Shown piece after piece: positions 13,833 to 64,000 of a stretch of 64,000 nucleotides of DNA (positions are counted from its first letter, which is position 1; each line of letters starts with the position of its first letter). A program made the position numbers and the translations under genes. The notes beneath the pieces were generated by a model. It was not told the origin of the DNA. It ran no database searches and was given only the letters and a program-made list of their open reading frames with translations. The DNA is from Flaviflexus ciconiae (GTDB taxonomy: Bacteria; Actinomycetota; Actinomycetes; Actinomycetales; Actinomycetaceae), in contig NZ_CP034593.1 in the NCBI RefSeq assembly GCF_003971195.1, positions 744,001 to 808,000 on the forward strand, in the 5' to 3' direction.

Positions 13833-14925
13833 TTACTCGGTGTTGGAGTTCTTCTTCGCGAGCACGATGTCGGCGGCGAGCACCCCGCCTGCGCCGGCGA
13901 AGGCAAACGAGGCATAGTCTTCATCGAGTCCTCGTCCCATGGTCCGCAATGGAACCGGGGATTGTTCGAGGGCTTTCCGAATGCCTGTCACCTCTGTGAG
14001 GGTGAGTCTGCCGGTGGCTTCCAGCAGTGGATAGCTCTCTTCGATGCTGGCACGTGTTTCATCGTCGATGGCTTCGCGGGTCGTGGGAACGAGAGCCGGC
14101 GTGAGTGCCACTTTGGTGTAGGCCGTGAGCGAGTGGTGCGAGATGCCCCGGTGCCGTGGCCTCGCATCGGCCCCCGAGACTCGCAGGGTGGCGATTGCCG
14201 TGCCGTCGAGGGCATTGATGGCGTTAATCGCTTCGCCGACAGCGGTTCCGGAGAATCCCCACGGTGTGCCCGTGCCGATGTTGCCGGGGCCCTGGACGAT
14301 GATGGCGAGATCTGCTCCGACAACGTGCTTGGCGGTGAGTAGCGCCGTGTGAACGTTCACGGCCTCGTACTTACCGCCGAAGGACTGGCCTGCCGTGATG
14401 GTTTCAATGTGCCCACGGTCGACGAGGCTGGCAGCCGTCCGTGAGAAGGCCAGTGGGAGTGCCGCCGTGTCGGTGTGAATGTAGGCGATGGTGAGTTCGG
14501 GGAGCGGTGCCGTGCCGCGGCAACTATTGCGGGTAGCGCCGAGTGCAGATCGGCGACAACGCACGGCATGCCTTCCACGCTCTGTGCGTCGCAGAGGGTG
14601 TGATGATGGGGTGATTCCTGCTCGTCGACTCCGAGGACCATCGTCTGCTGGGGCGTGTAGCGAGCTTTCACCATGTGTCCCGGGCCGGTGCGCGGGGCGG
14701 GAGCCGATCGAGCGGTGCCACGACGAACAGATATCCGCCTGTTCCCAGGCCCCTGTCGACCGCGGTGGAGGAGAGAAGGACTCGTTCACCAACGGCAATA
14801 TTGCCGACGAGGTCGGGGTAGGCGAGGGCGCGCATTCGCTCACCGTCACAGTCAACCCACCATTCGGCCGCCCCATGCCAGGAGCGGCCAGGTTCAACAA
14901 CAGTTCCTTCACGCCAGGTCATCAC
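13833..14925 (-). pseudogene. DUF3866 family protein, broken by two C-run frameshifts
   Basis: An actinobacterial DUF3866 protein of unknown function spread over three frames. Part 1 (from GTG 14925) runs TWREGTVVEPGRSWHG to LDRLPP; part 2 reads MVKARYTPQQTMVLGVDEQE to ALPAIVAAARHR; part 3 reads LTIAYIHTDTAALPLAF, then GPGNIGTGTPWGFSG and RHRGISHHSLTAYTKVAL, to the end. Adding one C to the coding-strand CCCC runs at 14694-14697 and 14499-14502 restores a single frame reading RLPPPRTGPGHMVKARYTP and AAARHRSPELTIAYI at the joins, both natural for the family. It may therefore be an intact gene with sequence errors. TAGGCT ends 6 bases before the start. Confidence 0.85.
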
Positions 14926-14931
14926 CGAACA

Positions 14932-14951
14932 AGCCTAACCTGGGATAGTGT
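14932..14951. promoter_or_regulatory. Divergent -10 elements of DUF3866 gene and pafB
   Basis: On the minus strand TAGGCT (14937-14932) ends 6 bases before the DUF3866 GTG. On the plus strand TAGTGT (14946-14951) ends 7 bases before the pafB GTG. The two face away from each other within 20 bp. Confidence 0.5.
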
Positions 14952-14958
14952 TGTGAAC

Positions 14959-15933
14959 GTGACGAAGACACGTACATACGATCCGGGTAAGCGCATGTTT
15001 GTGCTTCTCGCTCATCTTGTTGACCGTCCACGCCTGCGGTCGGAGCTATACGAGCTGGGCTACGAGAAGTCGGGTGCTGACCGGGCAAAGGCTTTGAACA
15101 GGGATATCACGAAACTCAGGGAGTTCGGCTATCCGATTACTCACGACGAGGGCGAAGACAATGATCCGCTGTACTCGTTGGACCGCGACGGGCTCATTGG
15201 CGTTGATTTGAGCTCGGCCGATCTTACGTTGCTACGTCTTGCTGCTCAGTCGCTGACCGGTAAGGACGAGTTACACAAGGTTGCGCGCCGCACCGTTCAG
15301 AAGCTCCTCGGCGGAGCCTTCGTGACCGACGATCAGGCAACCGTCCGGATCACGTTGCCGGAGATGGGATACCTGTTCGACATTGTCGAAGCCATGGACC
15401 GCAGGGCCCCTATCGTCATCGAATACGAGAACCCGCGCACCCCGGAGCGCCGCTTCTACATAATCGAAGTAACCGGCGTGTGGGAAACCCTCGGCTCCTT
15501 CTACTGCAAGGGAAACCGGGTAGCGGTTGGTCCCACTCGGGGTGACATGACCGAGTGCGAGCCGGTTGAACGCAACTTTCGGTTCTCCCGAATCAAGAAC
15601 GTCGAGGCGCTTGAGTCCACCGGTTACGAGGCCAATCCTCAGCTTAAACGAGCCTTCGATCCGGTCGACACCTCAATATTCCTCGCACCCGAGGCAGGTA
15701 ATCACCTGCGGGACAAGAAGCGGGAGCGTGGCACCGACGGCAACGGGTGGACCGAGTATGCGTTTGAGAACGCCAACTGGCCACGCCTGCTCGACCAGCT
15801 CGCAGTAATCGGAACGGGTGCCCGGTCAACCAATCCTGATTACCGGGAACGCCTCGAACATATTGCGGGTTTGGGGAGTCATGAGGAAACCAGACGTCGT
15901 CCTGTTAACGGCAATCACGACTTTTATCGCTAA
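14959..15933 (+). CDS. pafB: WYL-domain regulator PafB
   Basis: 324-residue N-terminal HTH plus WYL-domain protein, subunit of the PafBC activator of DNA-damage genes in actinobacteria. The HTH lies near residues 14-65 (FVLLAHLVDRPRLRSELYEL, then LNRDITKLREFGYPI), and the WYL region follows near residues 150-220 (IEYENPRTPERRFYIIEVTG). The GTG at 14959 (MTKTRTYDPGKR) is chosen because TAGTGT ends 7 bases before it; the frame is open much further upstream but that overlaps the divergent DUF3866 gene. pafC starts inside its 3' end. Confidence 0.92.
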   Translation: MTKTRTYDPGKRMFVLLAHLVDRPRLRSELYELGYEKSGADRAKALNRDITKLREFGYPITHDEGEDNDPLYSLDRDGLIGVDLSSADLTLLRLAAQSLTGKDELHKVARRTVQKLLGGAFVTDDQATVRITLPEMGYLFDIVEAMDRRAPIVIEYENPRTPERRFYIIEVTGVWETLGSFYCKGNRVAVGPTRGDMTECEPVERNFRFSRIKNVEALESTGYEANPQLKRAFDPVDTSIFLAPEAGNHLRDKKRERGTDGNGWTEYAFENANWPRLLDQLAVIGTGARSTNPDYRERLEHIAGLGSHEETRRRPVNGNHDFYR

Positions 15934-16858
15934 CCGGGGTGAGACCACCCCGGGGGAGATCGCCGAGGTCTTCGACATCAAAGTTGATGAAGCCATCGAG
16001 GCGATCAAGATCATTAACCTAACCGAGGTAACAGACCGCGCCGGCAGGTATTTCCTCGATTTCCATGTCGATGCGAAGGAAACCGAAGACGGCACGGATG
16101 TCATTTATTCGGCCGATGATCGGATCACTTACTTCCCCACGGACTATGACGATCCCCGGGTCTATCTGACGCTGGGGGAGTCCGCCGTATCGATTGAGAT
16201 GATCGACCAGCTGCTCAAGCTGTCGGCGCAGGGATCCGAGTCTGCGCAGTCGCTTCTGTCGGTGCGGGAGAAGATCCGGCAAGCTGTCGGCGGTTCGATT
16301 GGTGCCGAGCCGCCCACGCCAAGGGGATCGGATCAGGTGCTGGAGACCGTGTGGACATCGCTTCGACAATCTCGCATGTTGGCTTTCGACTACCACGGTC
16401 CGGCGGAGTTCGGTGAGCGCGTGACGCAACGGTTGGTGATCCCCTGCGCCGTGGTGTCTGAGGCAGAAGGCTACCTCGCGGCCCTGCAGGGTAAGTCGCA
16501 CGACTTGCGCTGGTTCCGCCTGGATCGGATGTCGAACGCTACTGTCGGTGAGGAGTTCACGCAGACGGACGCGAACCGGGCTCGACGTAAGCTCCGGAAC
16601 CACCCGGAGCTACACCCCACCGAGGGCGACGACGTCGTGTTTCGGGTGGAGCCGCAGGCAATTTGGTTCGCTGAGTCCACCCCGGGTGCGACCGTGACCG
16701 ACAACGGCGACAGTATCGACATTACGTTCCGGGCGGTCTCGCCGACGTGGGTGCGGAACTCCGCCATCAAGGTCGGCACGGACCTCATCGACATCTTCCC
16801 CGCCGAGGTGAAGGACGAGGTTGTCAAGCAGGCTCGCCGGATTTTGGAGATCCAATGA
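15881..16858 (+). CDS. pafC: WYL-domain regulator PafC
   Basis: Partner of PafB, 325 residues with the same HTH-WYL layout (MRKPDVVLLTAITTFIANRG at the start, WYL core around residues 165-235). PafB and PafC act together on LexA/RecA-independent DNA repair promoters. The ATG at 15881 is preceded by GGGGAG and overlaps pafB by 53 bases; the frame is open further upstream but the N-terminus aligns with the family here. The stop overlaps the next start (ATGA). Confidence 0.92.
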   Translation: MRKPDVVLLTAITTFIANRGETTPGEIAEVFDIKVDEAIEAIKIINLTEVTDRAGRYFLDFHVDAKETEDGTDVIYSADDRITYFPTDYDDPRVYLTLGESAVSIEMIDQLLKLSAQGSESAQSLLSVREKIRQAVGGSIGAEPPTPRGSDQVLETVWTSLRQSRMLAFDYHGPAEFGERVTQRLVIPCAVVSEAEGYLAALQGKSHDLRWFRLDRMSNATVGEEFTQTDANRARRKLRNHPELHPTEGDDVVFRVEPQAIWFAESTPGATVTDNGDSIDITFRAVSPTWVRNSAIKVGTDLIDIFPAEVKDEVVKQARRILEIQ

Positions 16859-17142
16859 TCGCCTGGATTGTCGCAATTGCCCTGGTTCTGTTTGGACTGG
16901 GGTATGCCGGGTGGGCGACGTGGCGACTGTTCCGGCTCTACTGGGGCGGACTTGCCAAACTTGGCGAATCCGTTGGGGAAGCGGCCGAACGGATGAGCTC
17001 GGTGCAGGCCCCAATTATTCCGCAACGGCCGAAGGAAACGCCGTTGGAGACCCGCGCCCGGATTGCGGGAGAACGAGAATGTGGCCGAGCACGCAGGCTG
17101 GCTGGGACCATTGGGCGATGGCGGGGAGATTTGTCCGTTTAG
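16855..17142 (+). CDS. Small single-span membrane protein between pafC and tatA
   Basis: 95 residues beginning MIAWIVAIALVLFGLGYAGW, one membrane segment followed by a charged cytoplasmic tail. It overlaps the pafC stop by 4 bases, which is the main evidence that it is translated. No family is recognised; small membrane proteins are often seen at this place in actinobacterial pafBC-tat clusters. Confidence 0.7.
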   Translation: MIAWIVAIALVLFGLGYAGWATWRLFRLYWGGLAKLGESVGEAAERMSSVQAPIIPQRPKETPLETRARIAGERECGRARRLAGTIGRWRGDLSV

Positions 17143-17150
17143 ACTCGGGT

Positions 17151-17156
17151 TACAAT
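17151..17156 (+). promoter_or_regulatory. -10 element upstream of tatA
   Basis: TACAAT, a close match to consensus, predicts a start near 17163 and a 20-base leader containing the tatA Shine-Dalgarno sequence GGGAG (17173-17177). Confidence 0.55.
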
Positions 17157-17182
17157 GTAACTGTGAACACTAGGGAGCGCTC

Positions 17183-17446
17183 ATGAACCTCAGCGGCTGG
17201 GAAATTATCATCATCCTACTCGTCCTCATCCTTGTCTTCGGTGCTGCAAAGCTTCCGACGATCGCATCGTCGGTCGGCAAGTCGATGAAGGTCTTCAAGA
17301 AGGAAGTGACGGAGCTTCGCGACGACACCGATCCGAATACCCCGCCCAAGCAGGCGGACCAGTCCGGATCGAATGTTCCGCAGTCGAGCTACGACGCAAC
17401 CTCTCCCCAGGTCGGGGATAAGGGACAAGACCAGACCAAGCAGTGA
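17183..17446 (+). CDS. tatA: Sec-independent translocase subunit TatA
   Basis: 87 residues: membrane helix at about residues 7-21, the conserved hinge FGAAKLP, then an amphipathic helix (SVGKSMKVFKKEVTELRDD) and an acidic/Gln-rich tail. TatA forms the pore for folded proteins exported by the twin-arginine route. It precedes tatC, overlapping by 4 bases (GTGA). TatB is not present here. Confidence 0.96.
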   Translation: MNLSGWEIIIILLVLILVFGAAKLPTIASSVGKSMKVFKKEVTELRDDTDPNTPPKQADQSGSNVPQSSYDATSPQVGDKGQDQTKQ

Positions 17447-18267
17447 CTGAACGGATCACGAAACGCCGTGATCCGGAGGGACGCATGCCTCTCGCAGAGC
17501 ATCTGCGAGAGCTCCGGAACCGGCTAATTTATGCCCTTATTGGCATTGCACTCGCCTCTGTTGTCGGGTGGTTCCTCTACGATCCGCTTGCGGCGATCAT
17601 GGTGGAGCCCCTCGACGGGATCAACGAACGGGGCGGTCATGCCGAGCTGAACTTCGGTTCCGTCGGCGTCGGCTTCGAACTGCATTTGAAGATGGCGGCC
17701 TTTATCGGCCTCTTCATCTCTTCCCCGTGGTGGATCCTTCAGGGCTGGCTCTTTATCGCCCCTGCACTGAAGCGCAAAGAGAAAATCATGGCGCTGAGCT
17801 TTACGGGCGTCGCTGCTCTTCTCTTCCTGACCGGCGGATTGCTTGGCTGGATGATCCTGCCGAGAGCTGTCGTGATTCTCACGGGCTTCGCGCCCGAGTT
17901 CGCGGTGAACCTGCTGGACGCGAGAATCTACTACCGGTTCTTTATGCAGATCATCGCCGCTTTCGGCGTCAGCTTCCTGCTGCCCGTGGTCATGGTTGGC
18001 GTGAACTTCCTTGGTCTTATCAAGGGCACGAGCTACCTGAAGGGGTGGCGGTGGGCTGTCATTGGATGTGCGGTCTTCTCCGCACTCGTTAACCCGCTCC
18101 CTGACGCATGGTCGATGCTTACCATTCTGCTTCCCATGCTTTTCTTCTACTTCATCGCTACCGGCCTGTGTATCCTTCACGATAGACGCAAGGCTAAAAG
18201 GCGGTCCGCCGAACTCGGCGAGCTCCTGGGAGATGAGAGCGAAGGACAGGATTGGATTCAACCCTAG
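17443..18267 (+). CDS. tatC: Twin-arginine translocase subunit TatC
   Basis: 274-residue integral membrane protein with six predicted helices, the receptor for twin-arginine signal peptides. The N-terminal cytoplasmic motif MPLAEHLRELRNRL (residues about 9-22) is the family signature. It begins at a GTG overlapping tatA and its 3' end overlaps the next gene by 16 bases. Confidence 0.97.
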   Translation: MTERITKRRDPEGRMPLAEHLRELRNRLIYALIGIALASVVGWFLYDPLAAIMVEPLDGINERGGHAELNFGSVGVGFELHLKMAAFIGLFISSPWWILQGWLFIAPALKRKEKIMALSFTGVAALLFLTGGLLGWMILPRAVVILTGFAPEFAVNLLDARIYYRFFMQIIAAFGVSFLLPVVMVGVNFLGLIKGTSYLKGWRWAVIGCAVFSALVNPLPDAWSMLTILLPMLFFYFIATGLCILHDRRKAKRRSAELGELLGDESEGQDWIQP

Positions 18268-19154
18268 GTCTGGTTATTAGTCCCACGGCTGGAAACGGCC
18301 GTGGGACTTCCGTTGGGAAGATCGTTCGTGACCGGCTATTTGACGCCGGTCATCGTGTTATCCCGCTGGGCGCTCCAACAGTCACAGAAACCCACGAAAT
18401 TATTTCTTCCGCTGTATCCAGCGGTCAGATCGACGGCATCGTCACCATGGGAGGTGACGGAACCGTTCACCTTGCCGTCCAACATCTCGTCGGCACCGAC
18501 CTGTTCCTCGGACACGTGCCGTTTGGTACCGGTAATGACATTGCCCGCGACCTTGGCCTCACCACCCGGTGGGAGACCGGTCTCGACATACTTGTGGACG
18601 CGCTCGAAAGTCGTGAGCCCTCTGTTATTGATGCCCTCGAGATCACCGGATCCCACGGCACTTCCTACGGTCTTGCCGTCGTGTCCGCCGGTGTCGATGC
18701 CGTCGTCAACCAGGCTGCCAACACGTACACACGGCCCCACGGACACGCCCGGTACCTGCGAGCAATTGTCTCGGAACTGCCCAAGTACAGTGCCCGCACC
18801 TACCGGATTGAAACAGACGGCAAAGTGGCGGCCGGAGAAGCGATCCTCGTCGCGATTGCCAACCTCACCTCGATCGGAGGCGGCCTCGCCATCTCACCCC
18901 GGTCCGTCTTCGATGACGGGATGCTCGACCTTATCGTGGCGAAGAAGCTCAGCCTTTCCGAGGTTGGCAGGATCTTCCCGAAACTCTACAAGGGCAAGCA
19001 TCTTGAGGAAAACGTCGTTCATACGAAGCGAGTTTCCGAGGCGACTCTGTCCACTCTTGGCGAGGGCATTACCGCCATGGTTGACGGCGAAGAGATCGGG
19101 CCACTTCCGGTTACTGTGCGAGTACGTCCACGCGCATTGAGGTTCCTCCGCTAG
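18252..19154 (+). CDS. Diacylglycerol/lipid kinase family protein
   Basis: 300-residue soluble lipid kinase of the DAGK catalytic family. GGDGTVHLAVQHL (about residues 67-79) holds the nucleotide-binding GGDGT, and VPFGTGNDIARDLGL (about 90-104) the second glycine-rich loop. It probably phosphorylates diacylglycerol or a related lipid at the membrane. The start is an unusual TTG inside tatC, with AAGGA five bases upstream; the first conserved residues (LGLVISPTAGNGRG) begin only five codons later, so there is little room for another start. Confidence 0.88.
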   Translation: MDSTLGLVISPTAGNGRGTSVGKIVRDRLFDAGHRVIPLGAPTVTETHEIISSAVSSGQIDGIVTMGGDGTVHLAVQHLVGTDLFLGHVPFGTGNDIARDLGLTTRWETGLDILVDALESREPSVIDALEITGSHGTSYGLAVVSAGVDAVVNQAANTYTRPHGHARYLRAIVSELPKYSARTYRIETDGKVAAGEAILVAIANLTSIGGGLAISPRSVFDDGMLDLIVAKKLSLSEVGRIFPKLYKGKHLEENVVHTKRVSEATLSTLGEGITAMVDGEEIGPLPVTVRVRPRALRFLR

Positions 19155-19157
19155 CCT
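19152..19157 (+). promoter_or_regulatory. -10 element of helY (leaderless)
   Basis: TAGCCT ends 6 bases before the helY GTG; its first three bases are the stop codon of the preceding kinase gene. Confidence 0.5.
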
Positions 19158-19163
19158 AGCCAC

Positions 19164-21779: not shown

Positions 21780-22242
21780 GTACCCCGCAAAAGCACGCGG
21801 GACCACCGGGCCTAGCGGGCTCGATCAGGGTCTTCTACTGGGGTTCCCATGCGCCGATGCGGCGGCGGTTCTGGCACCTTCGCTCACGTATTGGTGGGCA
21901 TGCCGGAAGAAATCCGGATGTTCGGTTCATTTTCTTGGGCGGCACCCAAGTTATATGTTCCAAGCCACGCGGTGTTCTTCTCTCGCGCGTCGGCTTCGAC
22001 AGGTTATGCGCAGGCGCGCATTGAAGCCCACCAAGCTTGAAGAAAGCCGGGTAAAGCACGAACGTTCTCATGTCACTTACCGTGCGGTATAGCGACGTTA
22101 TCGGGTTGTTGAACACTTTTCGTTGAGACAAGACATCGAACAGGTATCATCTGTTGGCCGTCCGTTCATGAGATCTTGGCAGTCTGGTTGGGCTCGGCTT
22201 CTAGCGTTGAAACGCAATTACTCTTCTGCAGAAAGCAAAGGT
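21780..22242 (+). other. Intergenic region between helY and the phosphoesterase gene
   Basis: About 460 bases. A weak hairpin (CCCGC 21784-21788 with GCGGG 21797-21801) may end helY transcription; the phosphoesterase promoter is at 22123-22150. I see no gene or RNA in the middle. Confidence 0.5.
22123..22150 (+). promoter_or_regulatory. Promoter of the phosphoesterase gene
   Basis: TTGAGA (22123-22128) and TATCAT (22145-22150) are spaced by 16 bases, giving a leader of about 85 bases. This is one of the few conventional -35/-10 pairs in the window and supports the downstream ATG start. Confidence 0.55.
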
Positions 22243-25474: not shown

Positions 25475-26962
25475 GTGCGTTCGCTCCTGCTTCTCCTCGT
25501 CGCCGCGCTCGGCGGTGGCCTCATGTGGGCTTCCTTTGATCCGATCGATGTTGCGGCCCTCGCTTTCCCCGCACTCGTCCTTCTCGCCCTGGCTGTCCGC
25601 GACAGAAGTATGCTGTTTGGCTTTCTTGCGGGAACCGTATGGGGCCTCGCCTTCTTCCTGCCGCTCGTGTCGTGGTCGTGGACCGCGGTCGGGGAGCCGC
25701 TACCCTGGGTTGCCCTCTCCATATCCCAGGCACTCTTTATCGGACTTACGGGTGGAATATGGGCGAGGGCCTCGACCATGCCGACAATCCCGGCAGCAAT
25801 TCTCGGAGCTTTCGCCTTTGCCGGCACTGAAGTCATCCGAACCAACTTCCCGTTCGGTGGTTTCCCGTGGGGAATGGTGGCCTTCTCCCAGGTGGGAACC
25901 CCGCTCCTGCGCACGGCGCCCTATATTGCTGCCGTCGGCGTCACCTTCCTGACCGTCGCACTCTCGCTCCTGCTCGCCTTGGGAGTTCGCTTCCTGTACG
26001 AGGGCCCTCGCGTCGAGGGCCTGATCCTGGTTCTCACCCCCGTACTTGCCGTGGCCCTGTGCGTATCCATTCCGCTCCCTGTGCGAGGCTCTGAGACGCT
26101 CCGAGTTGGCTGGGTACAGGGAGGCCCGGACGTGGGGGAACACGACTCTGGGAGGGCTTTGAACGTCACCTTGCGGCACGAAGAGGAGACGATGAGGTTA
26201 CTGGAATCGGAGCCCGAACTTGATCTCATACTCTGGCCCGAGTCAGCATCCGATCGGGACATTCGCACCACCCCGGAGGCTATGGAAATAGTTCAACGAG
26301 TCAGCGCAGCATCGGATGTTCCGCTTCTTCTTGGTACCCAGGAATACATTGATGATGGTCGCTACAACGACTATTCCCTCATCTTCGAAGGGAAGTTCGT
26401 CGACCACTACTCCAAGTCCCGGCCCGTGCCGTTTGGCGAATTCATTCCCATGAGGGACTTCTTCAGGAACTTTACGGACGCCGTTGACCAGGTCAGCACC
26501 GACATGCTTGCCGGCGAAGGGCCCGCGGTTCTCGATGTTCCGGTGGGGGAGCGGACGGTGGCTCTAGCAGTTCCCATTTGCTTTGAAATCGCGGTCGACC
26601 AGGTCGTGCAAGATGCCATTAATGGCGGCGGCACGGCACTCATTGTCCCCGTGAACTCCGCTTCGTTCGGTGACAGCGCCGAGTCGTTGCAGCAGATGGA
26701 GCAGACAATCTTCAGAGCGGTCGAACACTCCCGATCAGCCGTCCAGGTTTCCACCGTTGGCGTCTCCGGTGTTGTCATGCCAAACGGGACCCTGGTCGCC
26801 CAGTCGGACAAGCTGGAAGCCGCTTCCGGTGTCTACGGGATCCCGCTTCGGGACGAACTCACACCCGCAACCCGATATGGTCACATCTATAGGATTGTTG
26901 CCCTTATCGGTGCCCTCCTGTCGCTCGTATGGGCGATTGCTCGTCGGAAGGAACGTTCATGA
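25475..26962 (+). CDS. lnt: Apolipoprotein N-acyltransferase
   Basis: 495-residue membrane enzyme that adds the third acyl chain to lipoproteins. Several N-terminal membrane segments are followed by a nitrilase-like domain. Catalytic residues of the family are visible: Glu in LILWPESASDRD near residue 250, Lys in DHYSKSRPVPFGEFIP near 312-328, and Cys in VPICFEIAVDQ near 369. The substrates here include RibY-like, DctP and peptide-binding lipoproteins in this window. Overlaps ppm1 by 4 bases (ATGA). Confidence 0.93.
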   Translation: MRSLLLLLVAALGGGLMWASFDPIDVAALAFPALVLLALAVRDRSMLFGFLAGTVWGLAFFLPLVSWSWTAVGEPLPWVALSISQALFIGLTGGIWARASTMPTIPAAILGAFAFAGTEVIRTNFPFGGFPWGMVAFSQVGTPLLRTAPYIAAVGVTFLTVALSLLLALGVRFLYEGPRVEGLILVLTPVLAVALCVSIPLPVRGSETLRVGWVQGGPDVGEHDSGRALNVTLRHEEETMRLLESEPELDLILWPESASDRDIRTTPEAMEIVQRVSAASDVPLLLGTQEYIDDGRYNDYSLIFEGKFVDHYSKSRPVPFGEFIPMRDFFRNFTDAVDQVSTDMLAGEGPAVLDVPVGERTVALAVPICFEIAVDQVVQDAINGGGTALIVPVNSASFGDSAESLQQMEQTIFRAVEHSRSAVQVSTVGVSGVVMPNGTLVAQSDKLEAASGVYGIPLRDELTPATRYGHIYRIVALIGALLSLVWAIARRKERS

Positions 26963-27699
26963 GACCGGTCGTCATCATCCCCACCTACAACGAGATCGAC
27001 GCACTGCCGTCGACTCTCGACCGGGTGCGGAAGGACCTCCCGGAGATCGACATGCTTGTGGTCGATGACAATTCACCGGACGGGACTGGCGACTACGCGG
27101 ATCAACGGGCGGAAGCCGATGACCGTATCTCCGTGCTACACCGCCCCGGCAAAGGTGGTCTTGCGGCCGCTTACATAGCGGGCTTTGGGTGGGCACTGGA
27201 ACACGGCTTTACTCACCTGGTGCAGATGGATGCGGATGGTTCCCACCGCGCTCACGATCTTGTCACCATGTTGGAACGAGCGGCGCAGAGTGATGAGCCC
27301 GATCTCGTTATTGGCTCCCGCTGGGTTCCGGGCGGGGGAGTCGTGAACTGGCCGATGTCCAGGCAGCTCCTGTCTCGACTCGGCAACCTCTACAACCGGG
27401 TAGCCCTTGGTTTGCCCTATACCGATATCACCGCCGGTTTCCGCGTGTACCGAGCCGACACGCTCGCACGGATTGACCTCTCAGAGGTCGCGATCGTTGG
27501 CTACTACTGGCAGACCGACATGACCGAACGGCTCCACCGGGTGGGAGCTCACATTGTGGAATCTCCCATCACGTTCCACGAACGGGAAGCCGGGCAGTCG
27601 AAGCTGTCGTCCAGCATTTTCTTCGAATCGCTAGCCGAATCAACGCGCCGTGGCTTCCGCCATCGCACCGGCCAGGTCAAGAGGATGCTGACGAACTAA
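26959..27699 (+). CDS. ppm1: Polyprenol monophosphomannose synthase (GT2 family)
   Basis: 246-residue family 2 glycosyltransferase of the DPM1 type: VVIIPTYNEIDALPSTL at the start, VVDDNSPDGTGDYA near residues 33-46, VQMDADGSHR (DxD, about 88-97) and the FHEREAGQSKLS signature near 210-221. It transfers mannose from GDP-mannose to polyprenyl phosphate for cell-envelope mannosylation. Mycobacteria fuse Lnt and Ppm in one protein; here they are separate but overlap. ATG 26959 is chosen because of the ATGA overlap and because the family starts here. Confidence 0.92.
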   Translation: MRPVVIIPTYNEIDALPSTLDRVRKDLPEIDMLVVDDNSPDGTGDYADQRAEADDRISVLHRPGKGGLAAAYIAGFGWALEHGFTHLVQMDADGSHRAHDLVTMLERAAQSDEPDLVIGSRWVPGGGVVNWPMSRQLLSRLGNLYNRVALGLPYTDITAGFRVYRADTLARIDLSEVAIVGYYWQTDMTERLHRVGAHIVESPITFHEREAGQSKLSSSIFFESLAESTRRGFRHRTGQVKRMLTN

Positions 27700-28368: not shown

Positions 28369-30155
28369 TTAGCTCTGTTTTGTTCCAAAGGAATCTGCGG
28401 CCCTGATAAGACCGAGATGGGAGAAGGCCTGAGGGTAGTTCCCGGCGAGTCTGCCGTGGGCTGGTGAGTACTCCTCGGCAAGCAGCCCCAGCGGGGATGC
28501 AACCCCGACAAGCCGGTCCATGAGGTCCTTCGCTGCGGCTTCTCGGCCGGTCTTGGCCCACTGCTCAACGAGCCAGAACGTACAAATGAGGAACGGATAT
28601 TCGTTGCCTGTCAGCCCGTCCTTGCCGGACTGGGTGCGGTACCGGTGGAGGAATCCTTGATCGTCAACGAGGTCTTCCTCGATCTTTGCCATGGTGGACA
28701 GCATGCGCGGATCGTTGTAGTCCAGGTAGCCAACCTGGGGAGTTGGAGGAGGGAAGCATCAACCTCGGTGGAGCCATAGGTCTGGGTGTACGAGTTGATT
28801 TCGTCGTTCCATCCCTTTTCTTCAATTTCGTCCGCCAACCGGGCACGAAGTGCCTTCCAGTGGTCGACGGGACCATCGAAGCCGTGGTCTTCAACGGCCT
28901 TGATGGCACGATCAAACGCCGCCCATATCATCACTCGGGAGTGCGTGAAGTAGTGCAGGTCGCCTCTCATCTCCCAGATCCCGTGCTCCTTGCGGTCCAG
29001 GTTCTCTTCCGCGAAAATCAGAAGCTCCTTTTGGAGGGCCCAGGACCGGTGATCGTCAGCAACACCCGCCTTGCGGAGTTTGTCGAGTGCGATCATGACC
29101 TCGCCAACGACGTCGCCCTGGAACTGGCCTGCTGCACCGTTGCCGATTCTCACGGGTGCGGAGTTCTCGTAGCCGGGCAAGTGGTCAAGCTCGAACTCGG
29201 GAAGATGCCGTTCCCCGCCGAGCCCGTACATGATTCGAAGAGAATGGGAGTCGCCGGCGATGGCACGCAGGAGCCAGTCCCGCCATGCCCTCGCGCCGTC
29301 GGTGAAACCGTGAGCGACGAGCGCCTCAATGGTCAGTGAAGAATCCCGTAGCCATGTGTACCGGTAGTCCCAGTTTCTTGAGCCCCCGAACTCTTCTGGA
29401 AGGGACGTTGTCGCGGCCGCGACGATGCCTCCAGTTTTCGTGTCGGTCAAGGACCGCAGGATAAGGAGGGAGCGAACGATCTCGTCGGCGTACGGCCCTT
29501 CGGCATCGATCCGGGACGCCCAGGACGACCAGTTGGCTTCCGTGACGGTTTCTAGCATGTCGATCGGTTCGAGCTGTGGAGCTGGCTCATAGCTGGGCGA
29601 CCACAGCATGTGCCAGGATTCGGCCTCGCCTTCGCCGAGGGTGAATGTGCCGCCGTGCGAATAGCCTTCCGGATCGGGCAACGGGCCCACGAGGTGGATG
29701 GCCGTTGGACCAGCAATAGCCGTGAGGCAGGGCTGTCCGTGTAATTCTGCTCGTTCTACCCACGGAACCGAAGCACCGTAGTTGAATCGGAACCGCAGGT
29801 CGTGAACGATCTCAACAGTACCTTCCGTGCAGGTAGCGGTTCGGACCAGGTCCGAGGACGTCATCTCGCCAACGTTGATTGGCATGAACTCCGTGATCGT
29901 GACCTTACCGGTCGGCGTTTCCCATTCGGAGTCGAGAATAAAAGTGTCGCCACGATAGGTCCGCGACAGTAGCGTGCCATCTCGAGGAGCCATCAGCCAT
30001 CTGCCGTGTTCCTCCGTTCCAAGAAGCGCCGTGAAGAGCGCCTCCGAATCAAATCGAGGAAAACACAGCCAGTCAATCGAGCCGGCCTCGGAAACGAGGG
30101 CGCCGGTCTGACCATCGGAAAGGAATGCGTACTGTTCAATCGGTGTCGAAGCCAT
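28369..30155 (-). pseudogene. Glycoside hydrolase family 15 protein, one C-run frameshift
   Basis: GH15 alpha-glucosidase-type enzyme (glucoamylase/trehalase group), about 595 residues when repaired. The start (PIEQYAFLSDGQTGALVSE, then GSIDWLCFPRFDS) and the catalytic region (RNWDYRYTWLRDSSLTIEAL near residue 300) are typical. The frame breaks at the coding-strand CCCC run at 28737-28740: adding one C gives LLQLPQVGYLDYNDPRM and continues through YRTQSGKDGLTGNEYPFLIC to the normal C-terminus. The second half is therefore intact in another frame. Mycobacterial relatives act as trehalases. Its promoter faces that of the G6PD-like gene. Confidence 0.88.
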
Positions 30156-44128: not shown

Positions 44129-44772
44129 ATGGATTTTGTCACGAAGGAACGCTCAGACCTCATCAGCACATTCGAACGGATCGGGCCCGATGCGCCAACG
44201 CTGTGTGAAGGTTGGGATACAGAAGATCTTCTTCGGCACATGGTGACCCGAGAGATCTACCCCCACATCACTCTCGCGGCAAAGGTGCCGTGGAACTTCT
44301 CCGATGCGATTCGTGAGAAGAATGATCATCTCGAAACCGCATCCTTTGATGAGCTGCTCGATATCTACCGCAAGGGTCCCCAAAAGTATTCTCCTCTGCA
44401 GGTTTCTGCGCTCAACCGAGCCTTCAACACTCTCGAGTATGTGATCCACCACGAGGACATCCGGAGGGCGCAGACACCTGAGCTGGGTCGGGTCCTGGAT
44501 GACGAAGATCAGAAGGCCATCTGGGGTTCTCTTAAGACAACCGGCCAGGTGTCATTCGCTATGGCACCGGTGCGGATCATTCTCCGCTCCCCGAGCATGG
44601 TGAGTTCACCGCACTCACCACCAAGCGTCACGAGAACGCCGTGACAATCGTGGGCACGCCTCTTGAGCTCGCGCTCTACACCTTCGGTCGGTCCGTCGCC
44701 CAGGTCGAGCTTGAAGGCGATCCCGAGGATGTTGAGAAGGTTAAAGGCATGAAGAATACCCCGGACGAGTAA
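44129..44772 (+). pseudogene. TIGR03085 family protein (DinB-like), one C-run frameshift
   Basis: Actinobacterial TIGR03085 protein related to mycothiol-dependent maleylpyruvate isomerases, 214 residues when repaired. The first frame runs MDFVTKERSDLISTFERIGP, TLCEGWDTEDLLRHMVTRE and YVIHHEDIRRAQT (metal-site histidines). At CCCC 44589-44592 it shifts; one more C gives RSPEHGEFTALTTKRHEN and continues VTIVGTPLELALYTFGR to the stop at 44772. TATTGT ends 7 bases before the ATG at 44129, which is preferred to the longer upstream frame. Function unknown; thiol-dependent chemistry would fit with mtr in this genome. Confidence 0.82.
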
Positions 44773-53884: not shown

Positions 53885-53890
53885 ACCCTA
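53885..53890 (-). promoter_or_regulatory. -10 element of mtr (leaderless)
   Basis: TAGGGT on the minus strand ends 6 bases before the ATG at 53878. Confidence 0.5.
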
Positions 53891-53997
53891 GCCATATGCT
53901 CAGCCACAGCCCTAGAGCCCCGCTCTCATTACGGTCTGGGCGAACAGCCAAGGCGAACCCAGTATCGAATTAATTGGGGATGACTATCCGCCCTCAT

Positions 53998-54075: not shown

Positions 54076-54090
54076 GTTTACTGCGGAACC

Positions 54091-54383
54091 GTGAAGAAGG
54101 TGTTCGTTCTTGGCGGTGCATTTATCGCCGTTATCGCGTGCTCACCGATCCGTGCCGGCTTCGATCTCCTCCCCTAGGAGGCTCTCTCGCCGTCCACTCC
54201 GAAACTATCCACGATGGCACGCCTCACGTACTCGACAGCAATGCGGTGCAGCACGTGGATAACGTGAGCTTCTTACCTGCCCCGTGGATGATGCGGCCAG
54301 GGCCACCCCACGTCGAGCCGATTATCATCGTGCCCGCCTTCGTGAATGCTCCGTTGGCCAGCCTCGAGGAAACCGCCGCGTAA
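54091..54383 (+). pseudogene. Small secreted or lipid-anchored protein, one C-run frameshift
   Basis: GTG 54091 opens a frame reading MKKVFVLGGAFIAVIACSPI, a signal peptide with a lipobox-like VIAC, and stops at 54177. Adding one C to the CCCC run 54171-54174 joins it to an open frame giving FDLLPLGGSLAVHSETIHDG, then VLDSNAVQHVDNVSFLPAPW and VEPIIIVPAFVNAPLASLEE, 97 residues in all. The same kind of slip breaks four other genes in this window, which supports the join. No family is recognised. Three 26-bp repeats lie upstream; the dpp-like operon converges on it. Confidence 0.45.
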
Positions 54384-54427
54384 CAACGATACGGCGCCGA
54401 CAAAGAACGTCGGCAGCTAAATGCGGA

Positions 54428-57767: not shown

Positions 57768-59413
57768 TCGTTAATCCAGGCGTCAGCGAACCACGGAGTC
57801 GACAGGTTTGTCTCGAGCCGCAGCCCCTGGACGTCCTCGGAGTACAGAACGCGGGTCTGCCAGTCGTACAGCGGCATGACATAAGCACCGTCAACAATAA
57901 TCTGCTGAGCCTGTGCGTAAAGATCGGCGCGCTCGGCCTCATCTGTCGTCTGGTTCGCCTGTTCCAGAAGTGCATCGAGCTCATCGTTACGGACGTTGAT
58001 GTTGTTGGCGTGGTAGCCAGACGGCGCGGGTTCGATGCCGTCGGAGTGGAAGATGATACGCATCACGTCGGGGCTTGACTTGCCGTACGGGGCGGTAATC
58101 GCATCGAATTCCCAGGCGCCGGCCGCCGCGTACCAGGAGGCCAGATCCATGGGATCGATCGTCACATCGAAGCCGACCTCGCGGGACTGGGCCTGAATCT
58201 GTTCGATGAGCGACTGCTCGGCAGGGATTGACTGGTGCGTTGAGACGGGGATCCGAACGGTGAGCCGTTCGCCGTCCTTGGTGCGGATGCCATCCTCGCC
58301 CATCTCCCAACCGGCCTCGTCAAGCAGTTCGTTGGCGATTTCCTGATCGCAGTCGAACGCACCATCGTCGTGGCTGGTGCCGTGCGGGGTGCTGGAAGCA
58401 ACCATGCTCGTCGACCGCTCTACCGTCCCGAAGAACAGCGTTTCGACACCCGTTTCGATATCGGAGGCGTGCATGAAGGCCTGGCGGACAAGCGGATCGG
58501 AGAAGGTGTTGCCGCCGGTGTTGAGCTCAAGGCGGGTGGAGGCACCGGAGCGGACACCAAGCAGGTCCTTGATCGGGCCGTCGGAGGCCCGGGCCTGAGA
58601 AATCGTGTCGGGTTGGGCCGAGTCGATGACGTCGACTTCACCGGCCTGAAGGGCAGCATAGCGGGAGGTAGCATCCGGCATGAACCGGATCTCCAGTGTC
58701 TCCAGGTAGGCGGGACCTTCGTGATCGGCGGTGGCGGGTGCGCTGTTGTAGTTCTCGTTGCGCGTGTAGGTGATCGAGTGCTGCTTGCTCCATTCGGAGA
58801 CGATGAACGGGCCGGTGCCGACCGGGGATTCGCAGTTCTCTTCCATGCCGCGCTCCATGGCGGTCGGTGACTGCATGGCAAGCCAGGTCTGTGCGAAGGA
58901 TTCCATGAGAGCAGCATCCGGCTCGGTCATGTGGAACACGGCCGTGTGAGCACCGACAGGCTCGACCGATTCGACGTGCTCCAGGGCCAGGTAACCGGTT
59001 GAGGACTCGGTCGCAGGGTCCTGCAGATGCTCAACGTTTGCCTTCACTGCCTCGGCATCAAACGGGGTTCCGTCGGTGAACTCAACATCCTCCTTGAGCG
59101 TGAAGGTCCAGGTCATGCCGTCTTCGGACATCTCCCCCGACTCCGCAAGCCACGGCTCGATCTCGCCCTCTTCCGTCATCGTAAACAGCGACTCGGTGAC
59201 ATGAATACCCGCGATCTGCTGAGGCATGTTGCCGCCAACGTGAGGGTCCAGGCAGGTGGGTTCGGCGTCGCCGGTAGCGAAGGTGAGAGTGCCACCGTCA
59301 ATGGGCTCTCCCCCGTTGCTTTCGCCATTATCCGTTTCGGATGAACAACCCGCTAGAACAAGACTGAGTGCGGCAACAAGTGGAAGGGCCGTGGAACGGC
59401 GGAAGCTCAACAT
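57764..59413 (-). CDS. Peptide-type ABC transporter substrate-binding lipoprotein
   Basis: 549-residue family 5 extracellular solute-binding protein (DppA/OppA class). Lipoprotein signal with lipobox LAGC near residues 20-23, then PTCLDPHVGGNMPQQIAGIH and ESLFTMTEEGEIEPWLAES, and WTFTLKEDVEFTDGTPFDAE, all typical. Ligand may be peptides, though nickel- or sugar-binding relatives exist. First gene of the operon: binding protein, permease B, permease C, double ATPase. TAAGGT (59425-59420) ends 6 bases before the ATG. Confidence 0.93.
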   Translation of the reverse strand: MLSFRRSTALPLVAALSLVLAGCSSETDNGESNGGEPIDGGTLTFATGDAEPTCLDPHVGGNMPQQIAGIHVTESLFTMTEEGEIEPWLAESGEMSEDGMTWTFTLKEDVEFTDGTPFDAEAVKANVEHLQDPATESSTGYLALEHVESVEPVGAHTAVFHMTEPDAALMESFAQTWLAMQSPTAMERGMEENCESPVGTGPFIVSEWSKQHSITYTRNENYNSAPATADHEGPAYLETLEIRFMPDATSRYAALQAGEVDVIDSAQPDTISQARASDGPIKDLLGVRSGASTRLELNTGGNTFSDPLVRQAFMHASDIETGVETLFFGTVERSTSMVASSTPHGTSHDDGAFDCDQEIANELLDEAGWEMGEDGIRTKDGERLTVRIPVSTHQSIPAEQSLIEQIQAQSREVGFDVTIDPMDLASWYAAAGAWEFDAITAPYGKSSPDVMRIIFHSDGIEPAPSGYHANNINVRNDELDALLEQANQTTDEAERADLYAQAQQIIVDGAYVMPLYDWQTRVLYSEDVQGLRLETNLSTPWFADAWINE

Positions 59414-60116
59414 TCGATCACCTTAGGAGCGCCGGGTGGACGCACAAACTCTGTGGATAATACGGCTCTCATCTTAGATTGAAAATCCAACAAAAATCAC
59501 GGTTGCCCACGTTATGACCTCTTGCGTGGCGAGCATCATATGTGTACATGCCCGAGAGTCCAAATTGGTCACGGGCCGCACGTCGTGGAAGGGGAGGAAG
59601 CAATTTGTCGCGGACGAGTAGGACGAGCGGCTTGAGCACTCCCAAGGCGCACGACCTATCCAGGCCGCATGAAGAAAGTAAGCATCGCTCAAAGAGTGTC
59701 CACATCCTCCGACACGCCGATTCGGACACGCTGAGATAGATCGAGGCAATTTCGCCGGTGAGAGTGCTGGTGAATCCGTCAGGGAAACGCCGACAAAACG
59801 CGAGAGGTGAGCCCTCCCGCTTGCCCTTCCTGCCATCGCCGACTCCCGCGCATAACCGTGAGAACCCGAAGGGCAGCATGCGCGTAAGTGCGTTCTAGCG
59901 CCAATTGCGAGCATTTTTCCACGAGAGACGGGGTTTCATTCACAAGCCTCCAACAGCAAAGTGAACAGATTTAACTCTAGACGGCCATAACCCGATGTAA
60001 ACGATGTACACAGTGCCTGATCGGAAACAAGTCGACCTGTCATGAATGTTGACGTACCTTAAATGACATATACATGGCGGAACTTAAGTACTACCATGAT
60101 GTGAATTCAGTGACGA
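59414..60116 (+). other. Intergenic region between the ABC operon and the MarR gene
   Basis: About 700 bases, the largest gap in the window. Contains the TAAGGT -10 of the binding-protein gene (59420-59425), a perfect DnaA-box-like TGTGGATAA (59452-59460) and AT-rich sequence from 59930 on with TTGACG at 60049-60054. Overlapping long frames around 59469-59914 have improbable composition and are not supported. Confidence 0.5.
59420..59425 (-). promoter_or_regulatory. -10 element of the peptide importer operon (leaderless)
   Basis: TAAGGT on the minus strand ends 6 bases before the ATG at 59413. Confidence 0.5.
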
Positions 60117-60686
60117 ATGAAAAGGATGATCGGCACCGTGAAAGCTTTCGTCGTGCCCCGTGCGATGAGGCACGATGCTGAGGGATGTGAGGACATGAGT
60201 GCAGACGAGAGCCCAAGGGAGAGAAAAGCGAGAGTTATGGCCGGACATTTGGACCGGCTCGATCGATTGCGCCGAATATTAACACTGAGGTCGGCGATGA
60301 CGTCGGCCCATATGAGAATCATGTGGCTGTTTACGGATGGCCGGACGCGCACGCTCAAGGAGATCGCCGAAGGTCTCCAAATCGAACAGTCAACCGCAAA
60401 TAGACAGGTCAACGGCGCCTTGGAGAAGGGGCTGCTGTCACGAACCAGACCGGACCGAAGAACCGCCTACCAGTTCAAACCAACCCCGGAAGGCCGGGAC
60501 CTTTACGAACGTAGCCTCGAATACGCCCTCGATGTTTATCGCACGGCGCTCGAGGCCCTTGGGCCGGACCGGCAAACATTCGAAGAGGGCATGGGCGCCT
60601 TCATCGACGCTTTTGCCGACTGCCTGGGCGCAACCGATGCCGAGGGTAACGTAACGCCCCACTCCCCCGTTACCGTCAAGTGGTGA
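60117..60686 (+). CDS. MarR family regulator
   Basis: Up to 189 residues. The winged HTH reads RSAMTSAHMRIMWLFTDGRT, LKEIAEGLQIEQSTANRQVN and ALEKGLLSRTRPDRRTAYQF, followed by a C-terminal dimer helix. The first ATG (60117) gives a long N-terminal extension; ATG 60195 (MSADESPRERKARVM), with GAGGAC just upstream, is closer to usual MarR length. Its targets cannot be told; the importer operon is divergent but 700 bases away. Confidence 0.82.
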   Translation: MKRMIGTVKAFVVPRAMRHDAEGCEDMSADESPRERKARVMAGHLDRLDRLRRILTLRSAMTSAHMRIMWLFTDGRTRTLKEIAEGLQIEQSTANRQVNGALEKGLLSRTRPDRRTAYQFKPTPEGRDLYERSLEYALDVYRTALEALGPDRQTFEEGMGAFIDAFADCLGATDAEGNVTPHSPVTVKW

Positions 60687-60730
60687 CGCCGGAGTTCTAC
60701 CTACCCGTCATAAGCCAAGCAACAACAGAA

Positions 60731-60777
60731 GGCCGCTCACCATCCCCGCACGGCGCGGGAATGGAAGGCGGTCTTTC
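60731..60777 (+). terminator. Terminator of the MarR gene
   Basis: Interrupted stem of GGCCGC, CCAT and CCCCGC with their complements GCGGG, ATGG and GGCGGT, followed by CTTTCT. Confidence 0.6.
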
Positions 60778-61001
60778 TGCATACCCGTCTTCCTGACTGC
60801 AGGTTGTTCATGACCGCCGAGCTCCTTCCCGAACGCGGCCTGTCATGGGGGTATGGCGAGGCCCAATATGGCCAAGTGAGGGCAATTCATACGCGCGGCA
60901 GAGACTAGCCCTGCCCTATGTTGTTCAGGAGAGTGTGCAATTTGGGGAGTTCACCCCGTCTGCAAGGCAGCCTCGCGGTTACTTCGGATAACCGATTCGA
61001 T

Positions 61002-61007
61002 TACCCT
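61002..61007 (+). promoter_or_regulatory. -10 element of the PQ-rich membrane protein gene (leaderless)
   Basis: TACCCT ends 6 bases before GTG 61014 and argues against the upstream start at 60918. Confidence 0.5.
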
Positions 61008-61013
61008 AACGTG

Positions 61014-61688
61014 GTGACTCCTCTGAACATTCGCATTAGCCTGCCCATCACAATTCTGTACCTTGTGCTCGGTGCAGTGTTTCTGAGCATCGCGATCTTT
61101 GGCGACCGGCCGATCTACTTTTTCGCCGGCCCGATCTTCCTCATCCTTGGTTGCCTCGTTCGGTTCATCCCGACAGTTCAGATCAGCCGCCACGAACTGA
61201 AGGTGAAGACACCGATCGGCATCACGACCGGCACCTACCCCGTTCGCTTTCCGGGCGACCTTGCCTTGGTTGACGGCAAGCTGTGGCACGTACCGACAAA
61301 CTCGAAGCTCGTCTCCCTCAAGTTCGGTTTCGACAAGAACGACCTGGCCAAACTCCAGGCCCAGCTCACGGGCACCGCCGGGGCGCCCCCAACCCAGGGC
61401 GGTCAGCAGGGCTGGCAGTCATCGGTCGGCCAGCCTCAGCAGCCGGTCGCCGAACATCAGGGCTTTTACCAGCAGGTGTCTTATCCCACCCACGGTGCTT
61501 ACCAAGGGCAGGGAACGTATCCTCAGCAGGCTTCGTACCAGCAGCCTCCAGCCCCGCATGGCTACTCCCCTTACCAGCCCAGCCCCCAGCAAGCACCGCA
61601 GTCTGGTTGGCAGGCGTCGGGAACCGGGCTGGGGTCGGAGCATTCTCCCCAGAACGACTATCGGTACATGCCTCCCCAGGGTCAGTAA
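61014..61688 (+). CDS. Membrane protein with Pro/Gln-rich C-terminus
   Basis: 224 residues. Two adjacent membrane segments (about residues 9-28 and 33-52) are followed by a small beta-rich domain (ISRHELKVKTPIGITTGTYP) and then about 95 residues of low-complexity Gln, Pro, Tyr and Gly (for example YQGQGTYPQQASYQQPPAPH). Such tails are common in actinobacterial membrane proteins of unknown function. GTG 61014 is chosen from the leaderless -10; the longer frame from 60918 would cover the promoter. Confidence 0.72.
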   Translation: MTPLNIRISLPITILYLVLGAVFLSIAIFGDRPIYFFAGPIFLILGCLVRFIPTVQISRHELKVKTPIGITTGTYPVRFPGDLALVDGKLWHVPTNSKLVSLKFGFDKNDLAKLQAQLTGTAGAPPTQGGQQGWQSSVGQPQQPVAEHQGFYQQVSYPTHGAYQGQGTYPQQASYQQPPAPHGYSPYQPSPQQAPQSGWQASGTGLGSEHSPQNDYRYMPPQGQ

Positions 61689-61876
61689 CGCTTCACCGCG
61701 AACCAATGCATTGGCTGACACAATCGAATGGTTCCTAACCGGCGCGGTCGTATAGGTGGCCGCACCGGTTTATCTTGACACTTGTTCTGGGCGCCGTTTC
61801 AGCACTCGATTCACAATCCAGTAGCCCGGGAGGTTTGCCCTTTGCTCCCGATAAGATCGGGCGAGGAGGCATGGAG

Positions 61877-62464
61877 ATGAACGAATTCAGTAACGATAAT
61901 CGCGGAGGCACCGGCACTCTCACGGTGATTGCCGGGCCAATGTTTTCCGGCAAGTCGGCTCGCTTGCTGGAGATCGTGAAGGGCTTTGCAGTTCACGAAA
62001 AGATCGTTGCTGTTTTTACTCACGCCATCGATACTCGCCGCGGGATTGGTGATATTTCGACGCATGATGGTCGGTCGATCCCGGCGATACCCGTAACCCA
62101 GGCCCGCGACATTCTGCCGTTCGCCGAGGTCGCGGAGGCCGTGGCAGTTGACGAGGCACAGTTCTTTGGAGCGGAGCTCATGAATGTGGTAGACGCACTC
62201 CTCGATCGAGGCGTCGATGTCGTGGTCTGCGGCCTGTCGGTCACGTTTGACGGCAGGCCGTTCTCGCCGATTCCGGAGCTCATGGCAGTCACCGAGCGCG
62301 TTGAGAAGCTCACAGCGGACTGTTCGGTATGCGGGGCACCTGCCTCCTTTCACCAGCCCGCTTCCAACCAGGACTTAGGCGATCCTCTGGAGATTGAGGA
62401 ACGTCAGGTGGGTGGCGCCGAGGCCTACGAAGCCCGGTGTCGACGGCACGCCACCAGGCAGTAA
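61877..62464 (+). CDS. tdk: Thymidine kinase
   Basis: 195-residue type II thymidine kinase that salvages thymidine to dTMP. Walker A is in TVIAGPMFSGKSARLL near residues 17-32, the Walker B-type site in AVDEAQFFGAE near 94-104, and the zinc site is formed by CSVCG and the C-terminal CRRH. ATG 61877 is preferred since GAGGAGG lies 7 bases upstream; ATG 61871 is too close to it. TAAGAT at 61852-61857 would give a short leader containing this site. Confidence 0.94.
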   Translation: MNEFSNDNRGGTGTLTVIAGPMFSGKSARLLEIVKGFAVHEKIVAVFTHAIDTRRGIGDISTHDGRSIPAIPVTQARDILPFAEVAEAVAVDEAQFFGAELMNVVDALLDRGVDVVVCGLSVTFDGRPFSPIPELMAVTERVEKLTADCSVCGAPASFHQPASNQDLGDPLEIEERQVGGAEAYEARCRRHATRQ

Positions 62465-62572
62465 TCCGCTCCTCCGTCGCACCTGAGCAAGGTGAATCTT
62501 CGTCGCCCGGCGAGACCGTCCTGCGGCGCAAGTAGCTTTCGGCTGTCCGGTGGCACATCGTTACCGAGTCGA

Positions 62573-62803
62573 TTATGAGTTGGCAGTATCGACGGGCAGT
62601 GCCGGGGCACCCTTGGGGCGCTCCGGCACTGTTTCATTACACTCCTCGTTCACGGCACTTCGCGAGTTTGTTAAGCCTTCAACCTGTACTTCAAGTTCTT
62701 TGGCAATATCGTCGATACTGCGCGAATGCGGTTCTGCCTGTCCTTCTGCCATCGTCTCCCTCACCTGTCGGATGATGTCTGCGCCCCGTGGGGCGTACTT
62801 CAT
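62573..62803 (-). CDS. Possible 76-residue hypothetical protein
   Basis: Starts MKYAPRGADIIRQVRETMAE and continues SIDDIAKELEVQVEGL, a plausible amphipathic helical protein, with a Gly/Pro-rich end encoded by a hairpin. No family is recognised and the ribosome-binding site (AGAAAAG) is weak. Codon use is acceptable for a gene of this genome. Confidence 0.42.
   Translation of the reverse strand: MKYAPRGADIIRQVRETMAEGQAEPHSRSIDDIAKELEVQVEGLTNSRSAVNEECNETVPERPKGAPALPVDTANS
62597..62636 (+). terminator. Probable terminator of tdk
   Basis: CAGTGCCGG and CCGGCACTG form a perfect 9-bp stem followed by TTTCATT on the plus strand, 130 bases after the tdk stop. Confidence 0.5.
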
Positions 62804-63135
62804 AGGAACTTTTCTTCCGGTCACGTGACCGGCCGGGCGGTGGGAGGCCCTTCCGGCGGTGAGCATCCCCGCCTCCCGGAGGGCCCAGCGCCTTCCCTCC
62901 TATTACCTGGGGTTACCGTGAGTGTTCCCGCGTCATAACCTGGGTTCAGTCTGAACGTTTCCCGTAGAGGTGGCGAGCATCACCTGGTGAATTCTTTACT
63001 CTCCTCCAAGCGCTCACGCCCAGCGGAAAGCTCTCTTCCCGAGCATCCTGTAAACCCCTCAGTTCCCATTCCGGCATAGGTTCACGCTTAGGTACCCCGG
63101 ATCTCTGCGTACGCCCTGGCTTCGACCCCTACCCG

Positions 63136-64000
63136 CTAGTCTTGCGGTGTTCCAAGATCGCGTAGACCGGTCCAGCGCTTGCGCAGGAGATGCGCAACGG
63201 CCTTGGGCTTCCGATCGCAGGTGAAGGCGCTCTTCTTGTTACCGTCCACGCGGACGATCCCATGTCCGGTTTGGAAGTCGGCAAAGTTCCACAGGTGCTC
63301 GCCCTGCACACCGGGGTGGAGGTCGAACAGGCCGAGATAGGCTTCGACGATCTCGACCTGAAACTCTTCCGACCACATGGCTCCGGTAAGCGAGTGAAGG
63401 CCCGCAACGGTGGCGGCCCCGAACTCTGTCGCGATGATGGGCTTACCGTACGCTTCCCAGTCGGTCAGCTTCTGGTCGAGAGCGTCAATGCCGGAGGGAT
63501 GTGGCCGGTTTGCGTGTACCAGCCGTAGTACCGGTTGATCATGAGTACGTCGCAGTATGTGGCCAGCCGGTCCTCGGAAGCCGGCGAGAACTGAACGTTC
63601 ACATATTCGACGGGACGCGTCGGATCCAGGCGGCGGGTGAGCTCAAAGAGGGGTGCGAAATAAGCTTCGGACTCTTCCGTATGCGATTCGGGTTCGTTCG
63701 CAATGGACCACATGACGACACTGGGATGGTTCTTGTCCCGCGCAACAAGTTCTGACAGGTGTGCCGCATGAGCTGCCTGCGTTTCTTCGGAAACATCATC
63801 CGGTCCGAACACCCTGTCGATCTTCGCACCGAAGGTTGCACCCACAACTTTGTTCATTCCGACCGCAGCGGCCTCGTCGATGACGACGACGCCGTGCTCG
63901 TCCGCATAGTCGAGAACCTCTTCCGCGTACGGGTAGTGGGAGGTTCGGAGCGAATTCGCCCCGATCCACGACAGGAGTTCGAAGTCGTGGACCATGAGGA
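63136..64000 (-). pseudogene. uidA: Beta-glucuronidase (GH2), C-terminal part, one C-run frameshift
   Basis: The 5' end lies beyond the right edge. The visible part begins in the GH2 barrel (MVHDFELLSWIGANSLRTSH) with the acid/base Glu in MWSIANEPESH. The frame breaks near 63493-63498; adding one C to the coding-strand CCC or CC run gives ALDQKLTDWEAYGKP, ATEFGAATVAGLH (nucleophile Glu) and GEHLWNFADFQTGHGIVRVD to the stop at 63136. Both catalytic glutamates are therefore preserved when repaired. The enzyme releases glucuronic acid from conjugates. It is probably intact in the organism. Confidence 0.85.

Follow-up and report, generated by a model that had tools for sequence, protein, structure and literature searches.

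Single-base breaks at short C/G runs in the Flaviflexus ciconiae reference genome probably reflect homopolymer undercalling rather than gene decay

Introduction

Do the genes that lie split across reading frames in a 64-kb stretch of the Flaviflexus ciconiae genome record true decay, or has the assembly lost bases that the cell still carries? The stretch (G000:C1:744001-808000, hereafter the window, with positions counted from its first base) belongs to a genome (G000) of one contig and 2,830,639 bases (~2.83 Mb), whose completeness of 96.1% compares with 97-100% in five genus-mates; we found no sequencing report of it in the literature. An initial annotation of the window had attributed the breaks in five genes to single-base contractions at six C runs, all of the same sign and context, and had read them as sequencing error. 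Here we compare the window, and larger parts of the same genome, with five other Flaviflexus genomes, including F. massiliensis (G003), G001, G004 and G005.

Results

All six runs lie where the initial annotation had placed them, as G4 on the forward strand at 14499-14502, 14694-14697 and 28737-28740, as C4 at 44589-44592 and 54171-54174, and as GGAGGG at 63493-63498. For the kept sites described below, scoring each possible break point against the proteins of relatives placed the break within a support interval 2 to 14 bases long. The DUF3866 gene (13863-14925, reverse strand) occupies three frames separated by two breaks, with the F. massiliensis protein matching three successive pieces in a tblastn search and the Pfam family DUF3866 matching the 3' piece. 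Its downstream break, at 14499, is seen with G004 proteins as well as with F. massiliensis, and scoring and alignment place it at 14496-14506 (reverse strand), an interval that holds a coding-strand C4 run; the upstream break, scored and aligned against the F. massiliensis protein, falls at 14693-14697 (reverse strand), again with a C4 run and with a C3 run adjoining. The GH15 trehalase-like gene (28378-30155, reverse strand; Pfam Glyco_hydro_15 and TREH_N) lies in two frames by tblastn of the F. massiliensis protein, and scoring against that protein places its break at 28732-28742 (reverse strand), an interval with a coding-strand C4 run.

The TIGR03085 gene, matched over 44129-44751 of the forward strand, likewise occupies two frames, and its break is present against both F. 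massiliensis and G004 proteins. The F. massiliensis orthologue scores 160.4 bits to TIGR03085 (cut-off 138.85); the 5' piece has 63% identity, and the second piece falls below the 48% identity bar of the scan described below when F. massiliensis genes are searched in G000, so that the break against this genome was seen in a separate tblastn search. Together, the C4 run and the support interval (44594-44598) span 44589-44598 (forward strand), and because the interval begins 2 bases 3' of the run, that run is only the nearest candidate for the spot of the missing base. Comparison with close relatives, which had been proposed as the check, thus finds the DUF3866, GH15 and TIGR03085 genes each one base short at every break relative to Flaviflexus proteins.

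For uidA (beta-glucuronidase, GUS; 63140-63995, reverse strand, continuing beyond the window end), the evidence comes from solved structures: the gene falls into two pieces that differ in frame and align to neighbouring stretches of the same PDB chains. By hand count, the gap between matched residues (63484-63503, reverse strand) is 20 nt, against 7 residues (21 nt) in chain 5c70; with 3k46 as the reference it is 23 nt, against 8 residues (24 nt). The expected one-base shortfall thus holds at five of the six sites and in four of the five genes, namely DUF3866 (two breaks), GH15, TIGR03085 and uidA. The fifth, the claimed small secreted protein (54091-54383, forward strand), is a candidate single gene drawn from the list of open reading frames, with a 28-aa frame that ends at 54177 and is followed by another that reaches 54383; its 3' piece matches no Pfam family and finds a match in one of six Flaviflexus genomes, G000 only. 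Similarly, the uidA piece that we searched has no match in the five other Flaviflexus (1/6 genomes, itself), so that uidA (window 63140-64000, reverse strand) may be a lineage-specific acquisition. Separately, the window holds an FMN riboswitch aptamer at 8426-8544 (forward strand; 93.7 bits), just 5' of an open reading frame (8573-9352) that resembles ABC transporter permeases below family cut-offs.

We scanned for paired frameshifts by tblastn in all six directions among 400-kb stretches of three genomes (G000:C1:500001-900000, which contains the window, G003:C7:1360001-1760000 and G004:C1:280001-680000). Scan genes were non-overlapping frames of at least 100 aa, each supported by another genome; these sets were chosen mechanically and may include antisense or over-long frames, and the scan is largely blind to breaks near gene ends. 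Searching F. massiliensis genes in G000 (270 genes with a hit) gave 15 shift pairs, all 15 with a missing base, and the identities of the two pieces were within 10 points of each other in 12 of these 15 rows. The reverse search (272 genes) gave 5 pairs, of which 1 has a missing and 4 have an extra base (Fisher p = 0.001 for sign between the two directions). G004 genes in G000 (215 genes) gave 15 pairs, 12 with a missing and 3 with an extra base; the remaining directions yielded 6 pairs for G004 genes in F. massiliensis (1 missing, 5 extra; 210 genes), 5 for G000 genes in G004 (4 missing, 1 extra; 227 genes) and a single missing-base pair for F. massiliensis genes in G004 (217 genes). The F. 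massiliensis reference frames are themselves mechanical open reading frames, which counts against an undercalling reading.

From the 400 kb of G000 we then hand-selected a kept set of 15 sites, each one base short and none an insertion (0/15), a selection that favours undercalling and is the reason for giving the unselected pair counts separately above. Joined position 140861 was dropped from the F. massiliensis list (a 22-residue piece, for which the G004 protein gives the opposite sign), TIGR03085 was added (tblastn with F. massiliensis, scan with G004), and five joined positions were dropped from the G004 list (40456, 140942, 176958, 267476 and 271335). Of these, row 267476, which F. massiliensis shows too, is probably G004's own break, as 271335 probably is. 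By F. massiliensis orthologue, the genes hit are glgC, the GH15 trehalase-like gene, TIGR03085, GAPDH-I, whiA, uvrC, uvrB (two), polA and trpC, together with a DUF3093 gene, a LacI-type regulator, dxs and DUF3866 (two breaks); the genes broken in G000 are unrelated to each other. Two observations concern the other genomes: in G004:C1 near 547810 (joined 267805-267814), the counterpart of window 26929-27699 is seemingly one base short with both G000 and F. massiliensis proteins, and G003:C7 near 1749415 (joined 389415) shows a break, one base short, within a gene that G000 carries as a whole 911-aa frame.

The kept sites are tightly associated with C/G runs. Allowing 4 bases on either side, all 15 support intervals contain a C/G run of at least 3 (null mean 5.0) and 11 of the 15 a run of at least 4 (null mean 1.07), values that none of 2000 null draws reached in either case. 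Furthermore, the inferred contraction rate climbs with run length: at inferred true lengths of 4, 5 and 6, the share of runs contracted is 3/1570, 9/351 and 3/14, figures that presume the lost base to lie within the run, use run lengths assigned by hand and credit TIGR03085 with its C4 run although its interval begins 2 bases beyond. No clear flanking motif beyond the run was seen when sites and background runs were compared by eye. We set aside the depletion of long runs as proof: C/G runs of 5 and 6 number 428 and 15 per 400 kb in G000, against 527 and 26 in F. massiliensis and 526 and 34 in G004, but A/T runs of 5 are likewise fewer in G000 than in F. massiliensis, and the lower counts in G000 may reflect composition.

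For a hold-out of 140 kb not seen before, we predicted beforehand about 5 breaks, all missing-base and all at C/G runs of at least 3. The outcome agreed in kind, exceeded the number and failed on "all": 11 pairs were found, 9 with a missing and 2 with an extra base, and a C/G run of at least 3 was present in the printed junction of 7 of the 9 missing-base pairs and absent from 2. Sign alone gives p = 0.065 for the hold-out (9/11) and p = 1e-5 when pooled (24/26). This evidence comes mostly from G001 (87 genes), since the F. massiliensis stretch matched little (23 genes); in the reverse direction, a single pair came from G000 genes searched in F. massiliensis (22 genes) and another from those searched in G001 (95 genes), and G001 against F. 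massiliensis gave none (17 and 19 genes). Among the hold-out breaks are those in cysS and in an OmpR-type response regulator that is close to MtrA and YycF, below their cut-offs.

Taken together, the claim of a shared sign and context stands in part. The sign holds at the five confirmed breaks in the window; the coding-strand C rule does not, and the context is better described as C or G. By eye, the coding strand reads C at 13 of the 15 kept sites (p = 0.033 when set against the proportion of C among coding runs of at least 4), but the 7 run-associated hold-out sites divide, again by eye, into 4 G, 2 C and 1 either, and we take the excess in the kept set as chance or composition.

The breaks are not confined to dispensable genes. 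Outside the window they fall in dxs, GAPDH-I, uvrC, uvrB (two), polA and cysS (G000 near 624796, 858160, 863160, 873591, 874094, 881025 and 2423036). For dxs, GAPDH-I, polA and cysS, the genes whose copy number we examined genus-wide, the split copy is the sole full-type copy in G000, while all five other Flaviflexus carry the gene above the family cut-off and unsplit, in one frame, so that none of these four breaks is conserved in relatives; the G005 polA scores as two stretches within one open frame. Weaker partial matches to dxs and GAPDH-I occur in all six genomes and are taken as related enzymes. The G001 orthologue of cysS, which is split in G000 at 2423036, scores 457.6 bits to TIGR00435; the other long match in the cysS search, a shorter paralogue that lies in a single frame in each of the six genomes, is probably MshC (a name we infer). 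It is hard to conceive of a living cell that lacks cysteinyl-tRNA synthetase, or that lacks cysteinyl-tRNA synthetase, GAPDH-I and Dxs together.

Finally, we searched for in-frame stops. Among 253 F. massiliensis genes with a good match in G000, 7 have a stop inside the match; in 5 of these every stop precedes the Pfam domain and falls in a frame start that is too long. The other 2 have no family; one is interrupted at residue 183 in G000 and at 185 in G004, the other at residue 32 of 253. None of these 7 traced candidates is a clear nonsense lesion; the corresponding figure with G004 genes, 21 of 198, refers to candidates outside this trace.

Discussion

Because missing bases prevail, because they fall at C/G runs in a length-dependent manner, in both the 400-kb and the hold-out regions, and because they split indispensable genes that are intact in relatives, we consider it very probable, from the assembly sequence, that the breaks are uncorrected homopolymer undercalls in a long-read assembly and that the cell carries these genes whole. 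Base calling and consensus building would have shortened true C/G runs of about 4 to 6 bases by one base each, in an assembly left uncorrected by accurate reads; the missing base would belong to the run, and the sequencing platform, presumably PacBio or nanopore, would be the cause. The initial preference for undercalling over decay is thus favoured by sign, C/G-run placement, run-length dependence and the nature of the genes hit. Against it stand the 2 of 11 hold-out pairs with an extra base, the 2 of 9 missing-base pairs lacking a C/G run of at least 3, and the 3 of 15 extra-base pairs with G004 genes.

The hold-out exceptions also bear on a mixed case, in which true frameshifts account for one or a few breaks, such as those in the accessory uidA or the small protein, and errors for most. 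The 2 extra-base pairs of the hold-out and its 2 missing-base pairs that lie apart from C/G runs agree with such a case, as does the lack of any match to the uidA and small-protein pieces in the five other Flaviflexus, on account of which purifying selection on these two genes cannot be judged. On the other hand, uidA is recognisable as GUS to either side of its break and is one base short like the others, and we regard the mixed case as unlikely.

True decay, perhaps in a repair-deficient lineage, would explain the breaks as slippage mutations at C/G runs, with broken uvrB, uvrC and polA as part of the cause. Indeed, slippage likewise favours longer runs, and the broken genes include uvrB (with two breaks), uvrC and polA. 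Such a lineage would, however, have had to lose cysteinyl-tRNA synthetase, GAPDH-I and Dxs simultaneously, which is hardly conceivable, and the 7 traced in-frame-stop candidates include no clear lesion; decay is therefore a very improbable account. As for the mixed lesions that decay would be expected to leave, extra bases are absent from the kept sites but occur in 3 pairs with G004 genes and 2 in the hold-out. The idea that the breaks are real and that the frame is recovered by transcriptional or translational slippage gains something from the first-set sites all lying at or beside homopolymer runs, but is scarcely credible given that the broken genes are mutually unrelated and that runs of at least 4 on the coding strand, 1116 of C and 804 of G, are read in frame within whole frames of G000. 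We give next to no credence to the notion that C/G runs have truly contracted across the lineage and that efficient slippage lets the split cysS, GAPDH-I, dxs and polA yield full proteins.

Undercalling of this kind resembles known assembly errors. In the accessible part of a study of Streptomyces, PacBio-only and Illumina-corrected assemblies differed mostly by single-base insertions in homopolymers (PMC6923854), which by our own reading of that part are bases missing from the PacBio sequence. As in F. ciconiae, those differences were found in G+C-rich actinobacteria, were mostly single-base, lay in homopolymers and came to light through homologues; however, the Streptomyces case was settled by Illumina reads (PMC6923854), whereas the comparison for G000 uses its assembly sequence. 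Nanopore assemblies (Kastor) offer a second likeness, in that gene-fragmenting indels dominate and are mostly false deletions, usually after runs of four to five bases, as far as the available text of that report goes (PMC12007338). In the same text, A/T runs lead, G/C runs account for roughly half that number, and errors of the insertion and substitution type occur as well (PMC12007338), whereas all 15 kept sites in G000 are at C/G. PacBio data as such need not give undercalls, because a nearly error-free PacBio-only assembly exists: in the accessible part of its description, it differed from a 454 assembly by only fifteen single-base indels, most of them blamed on 454 (PMC4134206).

If the breaks were real, which is very unlikely, they would make a striking case of tolerated frameshifts. 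On the reading as homopolymer undercalls, the breaks are not a biological feature but a warning about one reference genome, and the broken look of these genes is a problem of data quality, such that, as the initial annotation advised, they should not be scored as lost. Taken at face value, the assembly would imply the false loss of cysteinyl-tRNA synthetase (CysRS), GAPDH-I, Dxs, DNA polymerase I (Pol I), UvrB and UvrC, and the window would appear to lack an intact trehalase-like enzyme and beta-glucuronidase. Extrapolating from 15 kept sites per 400 kb gives about a hundred sites genome-wide, which would distort the species' pseudogene counts, studies of gene loss and pathway calls.
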